A DNA stretch of 35,795 nt. It comes from Candidatus Salinicoccus stercoripullorum. Its GTDB lineage: Bacteria; Bacillota; Bacilli; Staphylococcales; Salinicoccaceae. Below are positions 7,527 to 25,294 of the stretch, piece after piece. Location: NCBI GenBank assembly GCA_019113295.1, contig DXHR01000015.1, forward strand, positions 1 to 35,795, given 5' to 3'. The translations under genes and the position numbers were made by a program. Position 1 is the first letter of the stretch. Every line of letters begins with the position of its first letter. The notes under the pieces are model-generated. The model searched no databases, was not told the DNA's origin, and was given only the letters and a program-made list of their open reading frames with translations.

Positions 7527-8903
7527 TCATAACAGCATTGGAATCATGGCGATGGCGATTGTGATGAACCCCATCCTGAATGCGAATCCGATATTGATTT
7601 TAGTGATTCTGTAAGGATTGATCCCAAGATACTGTGAAGTCATTGTTGCGTTAAGGCCATATGGAGCAGCGGGTGCAATAGAAAGGCCGCATACTATCAT
7701 GACGATTGCGATGCTCAGCACATTATCTGCATTAATGATTGGGCTGAGCACTTCGAACAGAATGGCGAGGGTGGCAATCGGGTGGACACCGAACATGGCC
7801 AGTGCGTAAATGACGAGCATGATCAGAATGAGTATCAGCACTACAAAGGAATCGATGTAGCCGAACACCTGCCGCATCAGGCCGGGCAGTGGACTCACAT
7901 TGAACCCTCCGGAAAATATACCGAGGGAGAGGAACAGCACGGCAAAGTTCTGAAGCGTATTATTATGGTTGCGCCATGCTGTCCAGCCGCCTTTTACGAA
8001 CAGTTCGAACTTCTGCATTATAAAAGCGGTGACGAACGAGAACGGAATGATGATCAGTGCGACTGTCATGACGAATCCCAGGTTTGAAAAGATATTGAGT
8101 GTCATTACGAGTGACATGAAGCTGGCAAGGAGGACAATCATTTTCAGGATTGAATGCCTGAGCTCCTTTTTATTTATATCTTTAAATGGTGCATCGAGTG
8201 TCACATCCTTGAACTCTTTGCGCGAGATATAAATTTCGGACAGGCAGGTTACAAGTGAACATAATATAAGCCAGGGCAGCAGTGTGAAATAGGATAACCC
8301 CGTGGAATCGACGGTCAATCCGACGATGACTTCAAGCGGACTCCAGATCACTGCCAGGGAGAATGCACGGAGTGTGGATTTTATGATGAATTCATGCCTC
8401 AGGCTGACGCTCGCTTTTTTGAAAAGATCACTCATCACCTGCTGGATTATGTATATCGCAGAAAGGTTCAGGAATACACCGAGAAAATATGTAGTGAACA
8501 AGCTTCTGCCGTATATCTTTTCAACTCTGTTCTGTTCATCCTGGACCATATCTGTAATGCTTTCATCAAGACCGCCGACTTTGACAACGGTACCAATCCA
8601 GGGAAGTATGCTGAAGAAGAACAAAAGCGGCAGATTACTCGTGGTGTTGGTAACAATCGTCATCGGCGACTCGCCGGCAGTGAGGCTCAAAATGATACCC
8701 ACTGTTACGAATGAGGCACCGATCATCTTGAACAGCCGGGATGCAAAAAGCCATGAGATGAGAAGAACAGCAAATGCTGTAATGCTGACAATGGTTCCTA
8801 AAGCTGCAATATCTGTAAAGAAGTAAAATAAGAATAGTATGAAGAGTGCTGCATACAGATAAAAGAAGTTTTTCAGAATACTCTGGTTGTATAAAATACT
8901 CAT
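7527..8903 (-). CDS. Polytopic membrane protein, probable transporter
   Basis: This 458-residue protein has around eleven to twelve hydrophobic segments over its whole length and short charged loops. Small-residue patches such as SIAPAAPYGLNATMTSQYLG and MFGVHPIATLAILFE resemble the re-entrant regions of ion-transporter-superfamily carriers (ArsB/NhaD, DctM-like), but I cannot assign a family. It is monocistronic, read from ATG 8903 with AAGGTAGG upstream on its strand. It converges on the small membrane genes across the hairpin at 7475. Substrate unknown. Confidence 0.7.
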   Translation of the reverse strand: MSILYNQSILKNFFYLYAALFILFLFYFFTDIAALGTIVSITAFAVLLISWLFASRLFKMIGASFVTVGIILSLTAGESPMTIVTNTTSNLPLLFFFSILPWIGTVVKVGGLDESITDMVQDEQNRVEKIYGRSLFTTYFLGVFLNLSAIYIIQQVMSDLFKKASVSLRHEFIIKSTLRAFSLAVIWSPLEVIVGLTVDSTGLSYFTLLPWLILCSLVTCLSEIYISRKEFKDVTLDAPFKDINKKELRHSILKMIVLLASFMSLVMTLNIFSNLGFVMTVALIIIPFSFVTAFIMQKFELFVKGGWTAWRNHNNTLQNFAVLFLSLGIFSGGFNVSPLPGLMRQVFGYIDSFVVLILILIMLVIYALAMFGVHPIATLAILFEVLSPIINADNVLSIAIVMIVCGLSIAPAAPYGLNATMTSQYLGINPYRITKINIGFAFRMGFITIAIAMIPMLL

Positions 8904-9094
8904 ATATCCTACCTTCTTTCCAAGGACCAGATAAGTTCAAACTTAAACTGTTTCCATCCATTATAGTCCAAAAGGAACAGGGAATTCAAAATAAATTTCT
9001 CTAAGTAAATAAAACAGGAGACATTTGCAGCTTGGAAACGAGGGTATATTGATTTTATTTTTAAAATACTGTAATATTCTGAATGATGAAAAAT

Positions 9095-9118
9095 ATTTAA
9101 AGGGGTTCTTTCGGGAAT
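9095..9118 (+). promoter_or_regulatory. Candidate sigma-B promoter for the two small genes
   Basis: ATTTAA (9095-9100), 12 bases, GGGAAT (9113-9118) agrees with the sigma-B consensus GTTTAA-N12-15-GGGTAT at five of six positions in each hexamer. It lies 31 bases before the start at 9149. The remaining 245-base gap (8904-9148) holds nothing else I can identify. Chance matches are possible in AT-rich DNA. Confidence 0.45.
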
Positions 9119-9148
9119 ATTGTTTTACTTTTGAAGGGGGAAGGTTAA

Positions 9149-9319
9149 ATGGCGGTCAATCCATACTTTGTGTTTAAGCAGAAGTCTGCAGAACCGGTAC
9201 AACTGATGAGATACGATGATGCAGAAATGGAACTGCGGGAGACATTTTTCGCTAAAGGACATGCGATGCTTACTGATGAATTTGGAACCAAATGGCAACT
9301 CAGTTGTCCAGACGCATAG
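9149..9319 (+). CDS. Small soluble protein, 56 residues, unknown
   Basis: ATG 9149 follows a strong GAAGGGGGAAGG ribosome site. The product begins MAVNPYFVFKQK and ends KWQLSCPDA. It has no signal peptide or membrane segment, and is slightly acidic with one cysteine near the end. No family is recognised. The strong ribosome site and the next gene starting 11 bases after its stop argue that it is real. It may be stress-induced if the sigma-B-like promoter at 9095 is used. Confidence 0.6.
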   Translation: MAVNPYFVFKQKSAEPVQLMRYDDAEMELRETFFAKGHAMLTDEFGTKWQLSCPDA

Positions 9320-9330
9320 GGGGGAATCTT

Positions 9331-9558
9331 ATGCTGTTAGTGTTCTGTGCAGTGATTCCGTTACTGGTTGTCACCCTTGCGGTTTTATTTGAACCTTCAT
9401 ATATCTGGGTCCTGAATTCTTTGCTCTCGATTCTGGGCACTTTATTCAGCACGGTAAATGTCAGGTTCAGAAAAAATACATTATCGACAGTGCTGCTCAT
9501 TATAAATGCAGCATTATTCATATATTACGTCGTCACCGTGATAATCATATTAATATGA
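9331..9558 (+). CDS. Small two-helix membrane protein, unknown
   Basis: This 75-residue protein has two or three hydrophobic stretches with a short basic loop (NVRFRKNT) between them. The frame opens upstream at 9292 inside the previous gene, but ATG 9331 has AGGGGGGAA just before it and gives a clean hydrophobic N-terminus. It is probably coexpressed with the 56-residue gene. A 22-bp palindrome covers its last codons, and a strong hairpin follows. Confidence 0.65.
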   Translation: MLLVFCAVIPLLVVTLAVLFEPSYIWVLNSLLSILGTLFSTVNVRFRKNTLSTVLLIINAALFIYYVVTVIIILI

Positions 9559-9562
9559 TTAT
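9541..9562. repeat. Perfect 22-bp AT-rich palindrome over a stop codon
   Basis: The core AATCATATTAATATGATT is its own reverse complement, and two more base pairs match on each side. It includes the TGA stop at 9556-9558 and lies directly before a GC-rich terminator. It could be a protein-binding site, or simply extend the termination structure. Confidence 0.7.
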
Positions 9563-9564
9563 TG

Positions 9565-9605
9565 ACAGCCCCGGATCGGGGGTATTCCCGATCCGGGGCT
9601 GTTTC
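9565..9605. terminator. Strong convergent terminator
   Basis: The 16-base arm 9565-9580 pairs perfectly with 9587-9602 around a six-base loop, followed by a short T stretch. It separates the small plus-strand genes from the minus-strand oxidoreductase. Confidence 0.88.
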
Positions 9606-9606
9606 T

Positions 9607-10647
9607 TTATATATATGAATAATCATCGAAGTCGAGATCAGTCTCTTCGCCATTCAGGAATTTTGTGATCTCCCTGCCGAGTACCGGGCTTGCTGTAAGT
9701 CCGGTAGAGCCGAGGCCGTTGGCGATGAATACATTTTCCTCAGCATATCCTATATATGGCATATAGTCGCGTGCGAATGGTTTGAGACCGACCATCATGC
9801 TGATGTCCTTGATGTGTGAGTCGGGGAAATACCGTTTTGCAAGTTCCTTCAGATATTCATAGTTTTCCTTAGAGGGTTCAGTGGAGAAGCTTTCGGTCTC
9901 AGTGTGCGTCGTGCCGATTGCATATTTGTTTGCACCGAGTTCAACCAGATAGATCGGGCCGAGTGCCATGACGACCGGTGTATCTGTTACTTTGTCCACC
10001 TCATCGACTTCGAAATGGAATACTTCGGAACGCTGGTGCCGGATTTTTGGGATGTAATCCTGTTCGATAGCCCAGGCGCCAGAAGTGTAAATCAGCAGAC
10101 CCTCTGCCTTGCTGCGGTCGAAATCTTCATTGAGCCACCGGCCGCCGTAGTGGAGGAAGCCTGCCTTAAGAGCCTTCAGAAGGTTGGCCCCTTCGATCTG
10201 GCCCCCGCCTGCCACATAGACGCCGGGATAGAGGCCGGTAAGGTGCGGGTGCATCTTTTGGACATCCTCCCGGGCCACTTTATAGACGGCCCCCATCTCA
10301 GGTGCGTCTTCCTTCTTCGAATGGATCCGCTTGAACCCTTTCTCAAGCACCGCATCATCTTTGAACAAAGAGAGTACGCCTTCCTGCTTATATCCGGTGG
10401 AGACCCCGGTCTCCGCTTCTAGCGTTTTGACGAATTCAGGGTAGTATCTCGCTCCGGCAGTCACCAGCCGGTACCAGTTCTTATTGCGTTTCTGGCTGAT
10501 CCATGGGGCGATGATGCCCGCTGATGCAGCAGTGGCCTGCCCGGAATCCCCGCGGTCATACAATGTAACCGTATGCCCGGCCTTCGCCAGATGATAGCCG
10601 ATGGAGGCACCGACAATACCGCCCCCTGCAATTGTGTATGTTGACAT
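9607..10647 (-). CDS. FAD-dependent oxidoreductase, DadA/ThiO-like
   Basis: This 346-residue flavoenzyme of the glycine/D-amino acid oxidase superfamily begins with a Rossmann FAD site, IAGGGIVGASIGYHLAKAG, followed by an acidic residue in TLYDRG. The C-terminal part VFIANGLGSTGLTASPVLG is the usual second flavin contact. Likely chemistry is oxidative deamination of a small amine or amino acid, but the substrate is not evident. The start is ATG 10647 after a GGGGGTG ribosome site; the GTG at 10656 lies inside that site. It is monocistronic on the minus strand. The 143-base gap to the divergent gene at 10791 presumably holds both promoters. Confidence 0.82.
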   Translation of the reverse strand: MSTYTIAGGGIVGASIGYHLAKAGHTVTLYDRGDSGQATAASAGIIAPWISQKRNKNWYRLVTAGARYYPEFVKTLEAETGVSTGYKQEGVLSLFKDDAVLEKGFKRIHSKKEDAPEMGAVYKVAREDVQKMHPHLTGLYPGVYVAGGGQIEGANLLKALKAGFLHYGGRWLNEDFDRSKAEGLLIYTSGAWAIEQDYIPKIRHQRSEVFHFEVDEVDKVTDTPVVMALGPIYLVELGANKYAIGTTHTETESFSTEPSKENYEYLKELAKRYFPDSHIKDISMMVGLKPFARDYMPYIGYAEENVFIANGLGSTGLTASPVLGREITKFLNGEETDLDFDDYSYI

Positions 10648-21301: not shown

Positions 21302-21325
21302 ATCATCAGAACCGGTGGTTTTCAG

Positions 21326-21354
21326 GAAGGGATATTATCTGTCCCTTCTTTTTT
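21326..21354 (+). terminator. Terminator of the 51-residue gene
   Basis: GAAGGGA (21326-21332) pairs with TCCCTTC (21342-21348) around nine bases, then six T. Confidence 0.8.
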
Positions 21355-21923: not shown

Positions 21924-22703
21924 ATGCAGATAGAAAAAGTTGTTGAACAAAAGGGCGGCATGTTCAAAATAGTCATGGACAATGGGGATTACTTCCAGGC
22001 GCATGAGGAATCACTCGTCAGGTACCGTCTGATGAAGGGGGCTGAATTTGACGAGTCTGAATATGAACGTATCATGCAGGCGATCCAGTATGACCGGGCT
22101 TATGTGGATGCACTTAAATACATCAGCTATAAACTGCGTTCCATCAGTGAAATGCGGAAATATCTGTCAGAGGACTACACCCCCGGGGTCATTTCAGAGA
22201 CCGTCCACCGGCTGAAAGATGAAGGCTATCTCAATGATAGTCATTATGCGGAAGCACTGAAGAATACGATGCTGAACACCAGCGACAAAGGGCCCGGGTC
22301 ACTTGTGCGTGAACTTAAGAAACATCAGGTCGATCAAGATATCATCATGCGCACGGCGGATGCATTCGACTCGGAAATCGACAGTGAGCGCATGAACCGG
22401 ATAAAATCCAGAGAGCTGAAAAGACACAAGGGGGCCTATCGCCAGTTCAGAATGAAATTACAGGAGAAGCTCTATCAAAAAGGGTATAATAAAGACCATA
22501 TGGATATGATCGCATTTGACGAAGACGAATTTGATGAAACGTCCCATTTTGAGAAAGACTTTGAAAAGTATTACAATAAGTACATGAAAAGGGAAGGGTC
22601 ATATGCTGCGAGGCAGAAGCTGATCCAGGCGCTGATGCGGAGAGGCTATAATTACGATATGATCCGGGAAAAGTTAGGCGGTATAGATGATGAGTTCATT
22701 TAA
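21924..22703 (+). CDS. recX: Regulatory protein RecX
   Basis: This 259-residue all-helical protein modulates RecA filaments. Three-helix repeats are seen around YDRAYVDALKYISYKLRSISEMRKYL, VISETVHRLKDEGYLNDSHYAEALKN and the C-terminal KLIQALMRRGYNYDMIREKL. Length suits the long RecX type of staphylococci and bacilli. The last 17 bases overlap the DUF1811 gene. In S. aureus sgtB neighbours recX as I recall; here that place is held by a thioesterase gene. Confidence 0.9.
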   Translation: MQIEKVVEQKGGMFKIVMDNGDYFQAHEESLVRYRLMKGAEFDESEYERIMQAIQYDRAYVDALKYISYKLRSISEMRKYLSEDYTPGVISETVHRLKDEGYLNDSHYAEALKNTMLNTSDKGPGSLVRELKKHQVDQDIIMRTADAFDSEIDSERMNRIKSRELKRHKGAYRQFRMKLQEKLYQKGYNKDHMDMIAFDEDEFDETSHFEKDFEKYYNKYMKREGSYAARQKLIQALMRRGYNYDMIREKLGGIDDEFI

Positions 22704-23010
22704 CACAATGACAAGACGTGAAATAGAAGCGTACATTGTCGATAAACGGGAAAAAATGCGCAAGGCGGAAATGTTGGGGATCGAAAATGAATACCGGGTA
22801 TATGAACGCCAGGTGCTGATTGCAGAGAGCTATCTGATCGATCTGTCCCAGATTGAACCGGGAAAAATATATAAGATCGTCAGCAACGAAGATTTTTATT
22901 TTAAAGTGGAATATATAAAAGGGGTCTTCGCCTGGGGCTTCTATCTCGGCGGAAACGAAAAAGAGACGGGGATTCCAGTAAGCATGCTCCAGTTAAGCAG
23001 GAAAGGTTGA
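22687..23010 (+). CDS. DUF1811 (YfhH-like) protein
   Basis: This 107-residue soluble protein begins MMSSFNTMTRREIEAYIVDKREKMRKAEMLG, matching the YfhH/DUF1811 family; its second half forms an SH3-like beta region (GKIYKIVSNEDFYFKVEYIKG). Function unknown. It starts inside the end of recX, so the two are translationally coupled; ATG 22690 directly after is an equally good start. The pseudo-ABC gene follows four bases after its stop, placing it in the same operon. Confidence 0.85.
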   Translation: MMSSFNTMTRREIEAYIVDKREKMRKAEMLGIENEYRVYERQVLIAESYLIDLSQIEPGKIYKIVSNEDFYFKVEYIKGVFAWGFYLGGNEKETGIPVSMLQLSRKG

Positions 23011-23014
23011 TTCG

Positions 23015-24511
23015 ATGCACGACATCATTCTGCTCAGGGCGCGGGACCTGACTTATGCCAAAGAACCGGTGAAATTCAAAGACCGGATGCTCAGCCGTGC
23101 TGAAGGTCTGATGTTGAAGGATGTCACTTTCCACCTTTATAAGGGAGAGGTGCTCGGCATTCTGTCGGACTATAAGTCTCTTCATTATTTAAAAGAGGTT
23201 GTCAGCGGCACACTCGATGCGACAAAAGGGAAAGTGAAAACTAAAAGTTCCATACTCAGTCTGGATGTCATGGATCACATCCATCACAGGCACCCCGTGA
23301 ATATTTTCGTCGCGGAGCTTCTGGATGAATATATGCGGCCGGACGCGGCCTTGGGAGTGATGAAAGAACTCAGGGAGCAGCCATTGTTCAGAAAAAGATG
23401 GACCACACCTGTCAGAGATCTTCCACGCAGGGAAATTGCGCTGATACTGATTGAGATGTCCAAAGTCACTGATGCGGATATCATCATCTACTGTAATATG
23501 TACCGTCATCTGAGTACCCGGGATAAAGAGATGTTCAAGGGTGCTGTGAATAATCTGGAGCGCTCGGAGCGGGGGATCCTTCTGCTTGAGAGTGACATTG
23601 AACCAATCAGCATGCTTGCGAATTATTTCCTATGGCTCAGTTATGGACAGATACGCTATGATGGCAGTGTCAAAAAAGGCGTGGATACATATAATGAGTA
23701 TATGCGCAAGAAAAGTCAGTTGAAAAGCGTGGATGAAGAGGCTCTTTTCGATCTCGAATGGAAACAGAATGTCTCGGAGTATGCAAGGTATAAGCACTCC
23801 CTGAAGCGGCTGAGCCGTAAGCAGACCGGCATCATCGACGGGCTGAACATCAGGAAGATCATCCTGTCGGTTGTACTGCTGTTCATGATGCTGATGTCAA
23901 GCTTTGTCATATTCATGGATATTTCGTTTACCGGGAAGGCCAACAGCGACCAGGATCGGACAGTGACGGTCCCGGAAGAGGAAGAGAGTGTACGGACTTA
24001 TTATGCAATCACAGCAGAAGATGACATGGAGTTCGGCAGCCAGGTGCTCTCCCACATGAGCCTTGTTGAAGTGGGACCTGATCACCAGAATGGATATACA
24101 GTATTGATGGGTGACTCAGAGTATGAGGCCAGTGAGGACAGCCTGATCTATTTTAATCCGGCGAGCCTCTATCCTGAAACTGCTTTTGAATCACTCCTGC
24201 CTTATACCAGTGACAAATTCATGGAATCCTATCAGTTCTATACACGGTATGTGGGAAGGCAGACGGAAGAGGTGACGGACGGTTTCAGTCTGTCATCATC
24301 CGACGAGCGGCATGCAACGGTTTCCGGCTTTCCTGTTACGTATCATTTCAGGAACGGCTACGTATTTTCAATGACCATGCCCGCATCCGATATCGACGGT
24401 CTCCGTGAAGAATACGGACTTAATTCCGAAGATGTCATATTCAGACTGCAGGACGGAGGCTTCATGATCCTGGATGCATCGAATGAAACATGGCTGTACA
24501 TTGACCAGTAG
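23015..24511 (+). CDS. TagH-like ABC protein with all ATPase motifs lost, plus extracellular domain
   Basis: This 498-residue protein has the TagH/TarH plan: ABC domain 1-240, one membrane helix at about 280-302, and an extracellular C-terminal domain of about 195 residues. The ABC fold is recognised from LKDVTFHLYKGEVLGIL and from FLWLSYGQIRYDGSVKKGVDTYNEYMRK, which aligns with the corresponding end of TagH's ATPase. Yet Walker A reads GILSDYKSLHY (48-58), without the GKS/T. The signature is LPRRE (136-140), not LSGGQ. Walker B is DIIIYCN (155-161), without the DE. The switch histidine is replaced by E192. The frame is intact and full length, so this looks like a selected non-hydrolysing protein, not decay. 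It is partnered by the permease 10 bases downstream. Role unknown; a link with wall polymer export is an inference. Confidence 0.8.
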   Translation: MHDIILLRARDLTYAKEPVKFKDRMLSRAEGLMLKDVTFHLYKGEVLGILSDYKSLHYLKEVVSGTLDATKGKVKTKSSILSLDVMDHIHHRHPVNIFVAELLDEYMRPDAALGVMKELREQPLFRKRWTTPVRDLPRREIALILIEMSKVTDADIIIYCNMYRHLSTRDKEMFKGAVNNLERSERGILLLESDIEPISMLANYFLWLSYGQIRYDGSVKKGVDTYNEYMRKKSQLKSVDEEALFDLEWKQNVSEYARYKHSLKRLSRKQTGIIDGLNIRKIILSVVLLFMMLMSSFVIFMDISFTGKANSDQDRTVTVPEEEESVRTYYAITAEDDMEFGSQVLSHMSLVEVGPDHQNGYTVLMGDSEYEASEDSLIYFNPASLYPETAFESLLPYTSDKFMESYQFYTRYVGRQTEEVTDGFSLSSSDERHATVSGFPVTYHFRNGYVFSMTMPASDIDGLREEYGLNSEDVIFRLQDGGFMILDASNETWLYIDQ

Positions 24512-24521
24512 GAGGGGAAAG

Positions 24522-25280
24522 ATGAATTACAGAGTAAGATATTTGTGGAGGCAGTTCCTGGATCAGACGGGGTATTTCTCAAAGCACAATCTCACACCCC
24601 TTCTGCTTTATGTCATCGGACTCGTATTTCTGCTCGGGGCAATGACATTCATGGGGCCGGAGGGGAGCATACGTTATTTGTATACGGTTGTCGGTCTGAT
24701 GGCATCTGTATGGCTCTTCAGTATGGTGGTACTGAACAGGAACGCCACTTTCTATAAAGATTCAGTGGTCAAAGTCAGCTATGTCCCGCTGTATTTCAGG
24801 ATGCTTCCGACGATCATTTTCCAGACTTTCATTTTCGTGATATTTATTGTTCTGTACAGTGCATTCACAGCACTTGTGGTGGATGACTGGCTGATCAACA
24901 TATTCTCACTGCTGTATTACACGGTACTCGGTGTCATATTGATCATACCTTTCATCCTGCTGTTTCTGACAGTGGAAACCCCGAACCTCGGAAAGGTGAA
25001 TGTGGCGGTATTCATAGTGCTGGTTCTGGCTGTACCGGTGCTCTATCTGCCTGAATCGATACCCGATGTGCTTGAGAACATACTCAGCCTGAACCCGTTC
25101 TATTATGTAGTGTACGGTCTTCAGTCGAACGCTGTGCAGCTTGCCTGGAATATCGACAGGCTCCCGCATGATATACTGTTCTTTTCACAGGTTGCATTCC
25201 TATATCTGTGGATGCTTGGGTTCTACAGCAAAATGAAGTTCAATCTCTACCAGTACAGTAAAAAACGACAGGATGCCTGA
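24522..25280 (+). CDS. ABC-2-type membrane permease, partner of the pseudo-ATPase
   Basis: This 252-residue protein has an N-terminal amphipathic region (RVRYLWRQFLDQTGYFSKHNL) and six predicted helices. LNPFYYVVYGLQ before the last helix is typical of ABC-2 polysaccharide/teichoic acid permeases of the TagG type. ATG 24522 has AGGAGGGG directly upstream; an earlier in-frame ATG at 24474 lies inside the preceding gene. Its stop codon falls within the bidirectional hairpin 25262-25294. Without a functional ATPase in its partner it would need another ATPase or a different function. Confidence 0.78.
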   Translation: MNYRVRYLWRQFLDQTGYFSKHNLTPLLLYVIGLVFLLGAMTFMGPEGSIRYLYTVVGLMASVWLFSMVVLNRNATFYKDSVVKVSYVPLYFRMLPTIIFQTFIFVIFIVLYSAFTALVVDDWLINIFSLLYYTVLGVILIIPFILLFLTVETPNLGKVNVAVFIVLVLAVPVLYLPESIPDVLENILSLNPFYYVVYGLQSNAVQLAWNIDRLPHDILFFSQVAFLYLWMLGFYSKMKFNLYQYSKKRQDA

Positions 25281-25294
25281 CATCCTGTCGTTTT
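25262..25294. terminator. Bidirectional terminator covering two stop codons
   Basis: AAAACGACAGGATG (25262-25275) pairs perfectly with 25281-25294 around a five-base loop. It includes the last codons of the plus-strand permease and touches the stop of the minus-strand yfhP-like gene at 25293. Confidence 0.92.

Follow-up and report, generated by a model that had tools for sequence, protein, structure and literature searches.

What role can an ABC (ATP-binding cassette) transporter keep once its motor no longer uses ATP? This question is raised by two adjacent genes of Candidatus Salinicoccus stercoripullorum, located on contig DXHR01000015.1 (assembly GCA_019113295.1), of which positions 1 to 35,795 of the forward strand (35,795 nucleotides) were analysed and are called the window below. 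The first gene encodes a 498-residue relative of TagH, the ATPase of TagGH teichoic acid exporters, here called pseudo-TagH, and the second encodes a permease related to TagG. An earlier note, made from the letters alone, had described an open frame of 498 residues and, 10 bases on, a permease preceded by a ribosome site, all of which the sequence bears out: 10 bases separate the pseudo-TagH stop from the ATG, at 24522, of a 252-codon permease gene. The reading developed here, which has about an even chance of being right, is that the pair would be a duplicated TagGH exporter serving as an ATP-independent, wall-facing scaffold or receptor. The features on which the argument rests are the following, each with its basis in brackets.

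23015..24511, + strand: pseudo-TagH gene, 498 residues, catalytic motifs lost (open frame; TagH_C at E 5e-28)
23015..23704, + strand: degenerate nucleotide-binding domain (NBD), residues 1-230, predicted to retain the ABC fold (AlphaFold2, Foldseek, ratio of nonsynonymous to synonymous substitution rates or dN/dS)
23156..23188, + strand: remnant of the P-loop, residues 48-58, short of one residue and with Leu for the Walker A Lys (alignment; predicted structure)
23420..23434, + strand: ABC signature site, residues 136-140, LPRRE; within the window's family Arg138 never varies (33/33 distinct sequences)
23477..23497, + strand: Walker B site, residues 155-161, DIIIYCN, with Asp replaced by Cys160 and the catalytic Glu by Asn161 (alignment)
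23582..23599, + strand: switch region, residues 190-195, Ser193 for His, preceded by the invariant Glu192 (alignment)
23705..23848, + strand: conserved cytoplasmic linker, residues 231-278 (dN/dS)
23849..23929, + strand: single transmembrane helix, residues 279-305 (hydropathy 282-300; predicted helix 279-305)
23990..24508, + strand: extracellular domain, residues 326-498, SH3-like part and TagH_C (Pfam, Foldseek, profile comparison)
24522..25280, + strand: ABC-2 (type V) permease, TagG homologue, 252 residues (profile, hhalign, predicted fold)

The degenerate ABC domain across its family

The motif columns were read against a TagH-type protein encoded on contig 12 of the same genome, in which all motifs are intact. 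In this alignment with TagH-type proteins, the four catalytic motifs are all missing from the window protein, as the earlier note had claimed. By contrast, simple patterns for the four motifs each find one match or more in every comparator row (57, of which 55 are distinct). Two details of that claim need correction. The Walker A lysine is indeed gone, Leu standing at its position in 33/33 distinct sequences of the window's family, but the string quoted as lacking lysine, GILSDYKSLHY, does hold K54, in a column where K occurs in only 6 of these 33 sequences. The switch histidine is gone as well, but the residue aligned with it is S193, and E192, which had been named in its place, precedes it.

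The ABC fold itself is predicted to be retained, as had been supposed. AlphaFold2 gives a predicted local distance difference test (pLDDT) of 88-95 per block over residues 41-200, Foldseek finds that the predicted domain resembles those of TagH and TarH (TagH 7dd0, target-normalised template modelling score, TMt, up to 0.84), and the family profile recognises TarH (6jbh) at E 2e-27. In the P-loop region of the model, strand 46-50 runs nearly straight into helix 53-64. At a threshold as loose as E 1, the Pfam profile ABC_tran (PF00005) still gives no match to the window protein; it matches 19 of 47 members of the pseudo-TagH family at E 0.01.

The loss of motifs is graded among 72 distinct orthologues, which comprise 33 of the window's family, 38 from Staphylococcaceae and a single copy from a further family; a weak match from Variovorax (L123) was excluded, and the contig 12 protein (L048), a true TagH, was kept out of all pseudo-TagH counts. 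An intact signature is found in 0/72 and the switch histidine in 0/72, while the Walker A lysine is present in 38/38 Staphylococcaceae copies and absent from the remaining 34 sequences. Consistent loss of the four motifs across Staphylococcaceae, which the earlier note had proposed to check, holds for signature and switch (38/38) and fails for the Walker A lysine. The window's family has lost all three of Walker A Lys, Walker B Asp and catalytic Glu (33/33), and its replacements are fixed, with Arg at the signature and Glu before the switch in 33/33 and, at the position of the catalytic Glu, Asn in 32/33 and Asp in one. The Staphylococcaceae copies have an acidic residue at the signature position in 24/38 cases. 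The Walker B Asp is retained in seven copies, one of which also has the catalytic Glu; all are from Macrococcus or Macrococcoides (L108-L111, L113, L120 and L121 carry these names, identical copies being matched separately), and the Macrococcus copies thus combine Walker A with the Walker B Asp.

The single copy of the further family (L047:3989-5575, - strand) is very diverged (branch 3.39) and retains the DUF1811 and permease neighbours as well as TagH_C. It has lost Walker A, Walker B and the switch histidine, and FTYGQ is the sole trace of its signature.

The simplest order of events is that loss began with signature and switch, continued with Walker B and ended with Walker A, losses in parallel being possible. 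An NBD tree was built from 26 of the 72 distinct pseudo-TagH sequences and 25 TagH domains, other ABC families being absent from it; the branching order inside its pseudo-TagH clade is weak, with long branches (above all L047) and a program warning that long branches were joined. Intact Walker motifs in close relatives, named beforehand as a sign of recent decay, are met in part in Macrococcus, but they do not indicate recent decay, given that signature and switch are intact in none of the 72.

Pseudo-TagH is a functional protein-coding gene and not a pseudogene, as indicated by open frames in relatives and by dN/dS well below 1. It occurs in 48 of 60 genomes (its own and 59 relatives), with zero internal stops in the matches. 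Within the order, 141 of 157 genomes encode TagH_C, one copy each; 15 of the 16 misses form one family, the other (G018) is a gene running off its contig, and the two short frames among the 141 lie at contig ends. Across the class, TagH_C (PF22096) was found in 27/299 genomes, all within this order, and the Bacillus subtilis control was negative. Over pseudo-TagH, the closest named relatives are S. sediminis at 94% and S. carnicancri at 92%, and dN/dS was computed against these two and S. halodurans. It is 0.093-0.096 for the whole gene and 0.09-0.10 across the dead ABC domain, in line with the value below 1 that had been anticipated. The linker and transmembrane helix are the most constrained part (0.009 and 0.022 in two comparisons, with saturated dS in the other), the extracellular domain is less constrained (0.12-0.19), and the permease gives 0.07-0.13. 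As recX and DUF1811 also lie beside pseudo-TagH in 47/47 loci tested, constraint, order-wide presence and fixed neighbours together uphold the description of a selected pseudo-ATPase.

Likeness to TagH, TagG and TarGH

Profile comparisons indicate that pseudo-TagH is a homologue of Bacillus-type TagH over its full length. Its NBD aligns with TagH NBDs at a probability of 99.8% (hhalign, E 3e-29), and, apart from 5BND, TarH and TagH rank first among solved structures for the family profile. Within its own genome, the NBD profile places the two TagH-type proteins on top (E 2e-30 and 3e-25, next 2e-15), a ranking that covers 20 stretches holding part of the genome's 63 PF00005 matches. One transmembrane segment follows residue 230 in 72/72 distinct orthologues. 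Beyond it, Pfam places TagH_C above its cut-off in the window copy and finds the SH3-like part only at E 0.05; Foldseek superposes the extracellular part of the model on 5bnd_A (TMt 0.83). The extracellular domain also matches that of Bacillus-type long TagH (probability 87%, E 4e-6, 145 columns), in a comparison with four sequences from which L148 was omitted, its C-terminus being a glycine-threonine repeat; with this fifth, low-complexity sequence added, the probability falls to 47% (E 2e-4), the controls of the five-sequence set (30 column shuffles and a reversal) reaching at most 0.3%. The NCBIfam cut-offs for TagH are unmet by the window protein (NF010065, 28.7 against 538 bits; NF010066, 13.4 against 320 bits), and that of NF010065 is reached by 0 of 200 genomes of the class.

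For the whole protein, the top Foldseek match is the 527-residue TagH chain 9a4o_B, which we take to be that of B. subtilis, at E 3e-28, with a TM-score of 0.41-0.44 and a root-mean-square deviation of 45.8, the domains being placed differently; the next is the B. subtilis TagH ABC domain 7dd0.

The permease profile leads to TarG (6jbh_C, E 9e-15) and aligns with TagG at 99% (hhalign, E 3e-18), and the predicted fold is of the WzmWzt/TarG type (9cfl_A, query-normalised score, TMq, 0.70, Foldseek). P172 and the motif LNP (190-192) are kept in 42/42 pseudo-permeases, an alignment that includes the window and 41 of 45 permeases from named loci (L095, L110, L116 and L121 omitted). The cavity differs. 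According to the accessible part of PMC11971408, Arg186 and Tyr190 of TarG line and seal it; mapped by the hhalign alignment with an inferred numbering offset of 24, the first is Arg or Lys in 52/52 distinct TagG sequences and I, V, A, T, L, C or G in 42/42 pseudo-permeases, and the second is aromatic (Tyr or Phe) in 51/52 TagG sequences, with one gap, and L, I, A or V in 34/42 pseudo-permeases, with Phe in 8/42. On this alignment, the permease is a TagG homologue without the TarG cavity arginine. An open reading frame of more than 200 codons occupies the permease position at 119 of 121 loci, many of which are one place counted twice, both misses being one contig edge. Single-sequence phmmer recognises the window permease at 42 of the first 47 loci and tblastn at 36 of 47.

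The earlier description of a TagGH-like pair is thus well founded, full-length TagH homology being joined to TagG homology. The pair resembles the TagH/TagG of B. subtilis in its ABC domain, linker, single transmembrane helix and extracellular domain and in its TagG-type permease; the B. subtilis TagH layout includes an SH3b-like extracellular domain (PMC11466899, excerpt). It differs in lacking the catalytic motifs and the conserved TagG residues, in lying in a recX operon, and in carrying on a dead ATPase the extracellular domain that in Bacillus-type TagH sits on an active one. S. aureus TarGH (PDB 9cfl, PMC11971408) likewise has a homologous ABC domain and permease, but the TarH of Staphylococcaceae, unlike pseudo-TagH, is short, with intact motifs and without an extracellular domain.

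The earlier note had proposed a comparison with true tagG and tagH elsewhere in the genome. Paralogues that are presumably active do occur there, intact TagH-type proteins being encoded on other contigs. In the window's own genome, intact tagG and tagH adjoin PF04464 genes on contig 29. This TagH (L174:4796-6142) carries a C-terminal extension of about 190 residues without a transmembrane helix. A profile comparison of this extension with the extracellular domain of pseudo-TagH gives no match (probability 0.1%), and, if wall-binding, the extension has no obvious route across the membrane. The second intact TagH-type protein, the 302-residue protein of contig 12 (about 8791-9699; L048:3795-4700, - strand), is the closest to the pseudo-TagH profile among the ABC proteins compared. 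In Staphylococcus, TarH has 264-265 residues (L154, L157-L165), or 279 (L156) and 298 (L155) when upstream starts are used, and the dead paralogue is the sole carrier of TagH_C.

A TagH-type match at 1e-40 accompanies the pair in 47 of 48 genomes, the exception (G022) being 86% complete, and is found in 0/12 of the genomes without the pair, all 12 of which belong to one clade. The two Lacicoccus-type genomes examined encode a protein of 552-553 residues that consists of a tandem fusion of two TagH-type ABC domains, each of which has an intact Walker A and signature; the two genes, identified by TagH-type match, are as follows.

L175:5061-6722 (G012), + strand: tandem double TagH
L176:4980-6638 (G024), - strand: tandem double TagH

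Single-domain TagH gave no match at 1e-40 in G012 and G024, and these fusions rule out the idea of Lacicoccus without TagH.

The S. aureus orthologues would be SAUSA300_1852 (pseudo-TagH) and SAOUHSC_02008 (permease), judging from annotation and gene order; SAUSA300_1858 and SAUSA300_1859, also considered, turned out to be different genes. Work with a transposon mutant in SAUSA300_1852 has been published (PMC8826898, partial text), which suggests that pseudo-TagH is not essential in S. aureus, whereas TarGH is non-redundant and its deletion non-viable according to the accessible text of PMC11971408. A table of intracellular changes lists the SAUSA300_1852 transcript with the value -2.13 (PMC12333996, excerpt). 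In the text consulted, a persister proteome study that lists TagH and a study of MspA name no locus by which the two S. aureus genes could be told apart, and a GpsB study refers to B. subtilis TagH and S. aureus TarGH.

The structure deposited as the 'C-terminal domain of TagH' (PDB 5BND), with PF22096 and PF22269, is a direct orthologue of the pseudo-TagH extracellular domain, matching a Staphylococcaceae member of the family (L040) at E 4e-71; its source is presumably S. aureus. Because PF22096 is silent in B. subtilis and confined to this order, the name 'TagH' points to the wrong gene. Databases file the family under that name, which conceals that it is a dead paralogue. No paper treating the pair as a pseudo-ATPase was found in the open-licence literature, from which most subscription papers are absent.

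Possible functions of a TagGH pair without an ATP site

A composite ABC site is made of the Walker motifs of one domain and the signature of the other. As pseudo-TagH of the window's family has lost both the Walker and the signature halves, neither a homodimer nor a mixture with TagH has a site; judged from these motifs, a canonical ATP site cannot form, alone or with true TagH. In degenerate heterodimeric ABC exporters, one of the two sites still works. The pair shares with these exporters (reviewed in PMC7756269, consulted in part) degenerate ABC motifs under selection, and differs from them in having, in the window's family, no site even with a wild-type partner.

In the proposed reading, two pseudo-TagH and two permease subunits would assemble in a TarGH-like manner, the dead ABC domains forming a fixed cytoplasmic clamp or docking platform and the permease acting as a membrane anchor instead of an ATP-driven flippase. 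The SH3-like/TagH_C domain, held at the outer surface of the membrane, would be the working part; it might bind or sense a wall polymer or a wall-synthesis protein, and relay a signal or organise machinery without ATP. A wall polymer is the first candidate ligand because the extracellular domain of B. subtilis TagH is likened to SH3b domains that bind wall polymers (PMC11466899, same excerpt). Since TarH is short and TagH_C stands solely on the dead paralogue, catalysis and wall-facing function appear to be divided between two genes in Staphylococcus.

Several observations weigh against this reading. The whole-protein model has a predicted template modelling score (pTM) of only 0.51, the assembled complex being inferred, and the single copy of the further family keeps the partial signature FTYGQ. 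The division between two genes is less tidy in Salinicoccus, where the active TagH ends in an unrelated-looking C-terminal extension that lacks a transmembrane helix. The co-occurrence of pair and TagH is confounded by descent, one clade lacking both, and is weak evidence. PF04464 has no match in 7/48 genomes that bear the pair (G013, G017, G026, G028, which is 80% complete, G033, G041 and G049), so that the ligand is not simply polyol-phosphate teichoic acid in all; this weakens the suggested tie to one wall polymer, although 47/48 have a TagH-type ATPase. Finally, the S29G change in SAOUHSC_02008, a single missense change, was without defect in growth, teichoic acid and secretion in the accessible part of PMC11841065.

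Among the alternatives, the one that survives best, although unlikely, is that pseudo-TagH and its permease are regulatory or dominant-negative partners that swap subunits with true TagGH and so slow or place the exporter. Such a role would fit the kinship of the two subunits with TagG and TagH and the co-occurrence in 47/48 genomes, but that co-occurrence is subject to the confounding by descent just mentioned, and the permease-position frame at 119/121 loci points to a self-contained complex.

The old ATP site might instead bind a nucleotide or another small molecule without hydrolysis, as a sensor. The Walker A lysine of all 38 Staphylococcaceae copies and the Walker B Asp of the seven Macrococcus-type copies would be in keeping with this, which is made doubtful by the shortened P-loop of the window's family and by the loss of its lysine in 33/33.

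Equally doubtful is a more specific form of the scaffold or receptor, in which protein-protein salt bridges would have taken the place of the ATP sandwich, so that the ABC dimer stays shut for good without ATP, a transporter frozen in its closed state and used to face the wall. Given the Walker A Lys to Leu change, the signature Arg and the pre-switch Glu (33/33 each), an Arg-Glu' contact across the dimer, at the former place of ATP, is conceivable, and a Lys-Asp version of this lock is possible in Staphylococcaceae, from the kept Walker A Lys and the acidic signature position (24/38).

That the dead ABC domains keep the permease open as an ATP-independent channel or lipid scramblase seems improbable: P172 and LNP are conserved throughout and the predicted fold is like those of TarG and WzmWzt, but a TarG-like anionic path is unlikely where the Arg186 equivalent is uncharged in 42/42 and the Tyr190 equivalent aliphatic in 34/42.

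A mixed transporter, in which pseudo-TagH and true TagH share one working ATP site, is very improbable. All pair-bearing genomes but G022 have the TagH-type match that it calls for, and the Walker A and Walker B Asp of Macrococcus make an ancestral mixed state conceivable; in the window's family, however, the Walker and signature halves are both lost, which would leave a mixed dimer with no working site and by the logic of the composite site rules out a mixed ATP site in this lineage.

A recent pseudogene or assembly artefact, a transporter decaying before its frame breaks, would explain that every catalytic motif is gone in the window copy, but its probability is close to nil: three families with open frames under constraint rule it out, with dN/dS about 0.09, 0 internal stops in 48 genomes, R138, N161 and E192 fixed, and the two short frames of 141 sitting at contig ends.

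Operon context and significance

The pair belongs to the conserved run recX-DUF1811-pseudoTagH-permease, whose remaining elements in the window are listed below.

21924..22703, + strand: recX, overlapping the DUF1811 gene and opening the run (library match, 47 loci)
22687..23010, + strand: DUF1811 gene, constant neighbour, its 3' end 4 bases before pseudo-TagH (library match, 47 loci)
24510..24517, + strand: ribosome-binding sequence AGGAGGGG of the permease, overlapping the pseudo-TagH stop (read from sequence)
25262..25294, + strand: strong terminator hairpin closing the operon and overlapping the permease stop (14-pair stem; z -8.1)

A second terminator-like hairpin, at 21324-21350, lies 5' of the run that includes a thioesterase gene before recX. 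Given hairpins at both ends, thioesterase, recX, DUF1811, pseudo-TagH and permease may form one five-gene transcription unit; seven terminator-like sites were found where 3.8 were expected. The locus neighbours are genes of RecX, DUF1811, YdjM type and MutY type, the last two presumably yfhP and mutY, and no tag or tar biosynthesis genes adjoin them; a search with an anti-phage defence library gave no match.

Motor and permease of an entire ABC transporter appear to have been retained, across the staphylococci and related bacteria, for a job other than transport. Several stages of motor loss can be seen, from the Walker-bearing copies of Macrococcus, through those of Staphylococcus and Mammaliicoccus, which keep only the Walker A lysine, to those of the Salinicoccus family, which keep nothing, and this series lets experiments ask what role an ABC complex has after ATP use ends. 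The naming is also corrected, as 5BND, TagH_C and TagH_SH3-like belong to the dead paralogue and not to the active exporter TarH. Lastly, the function of the Bacillus TagH extracellular domain may be studied here with essential teichoic acid export left undisturbed.

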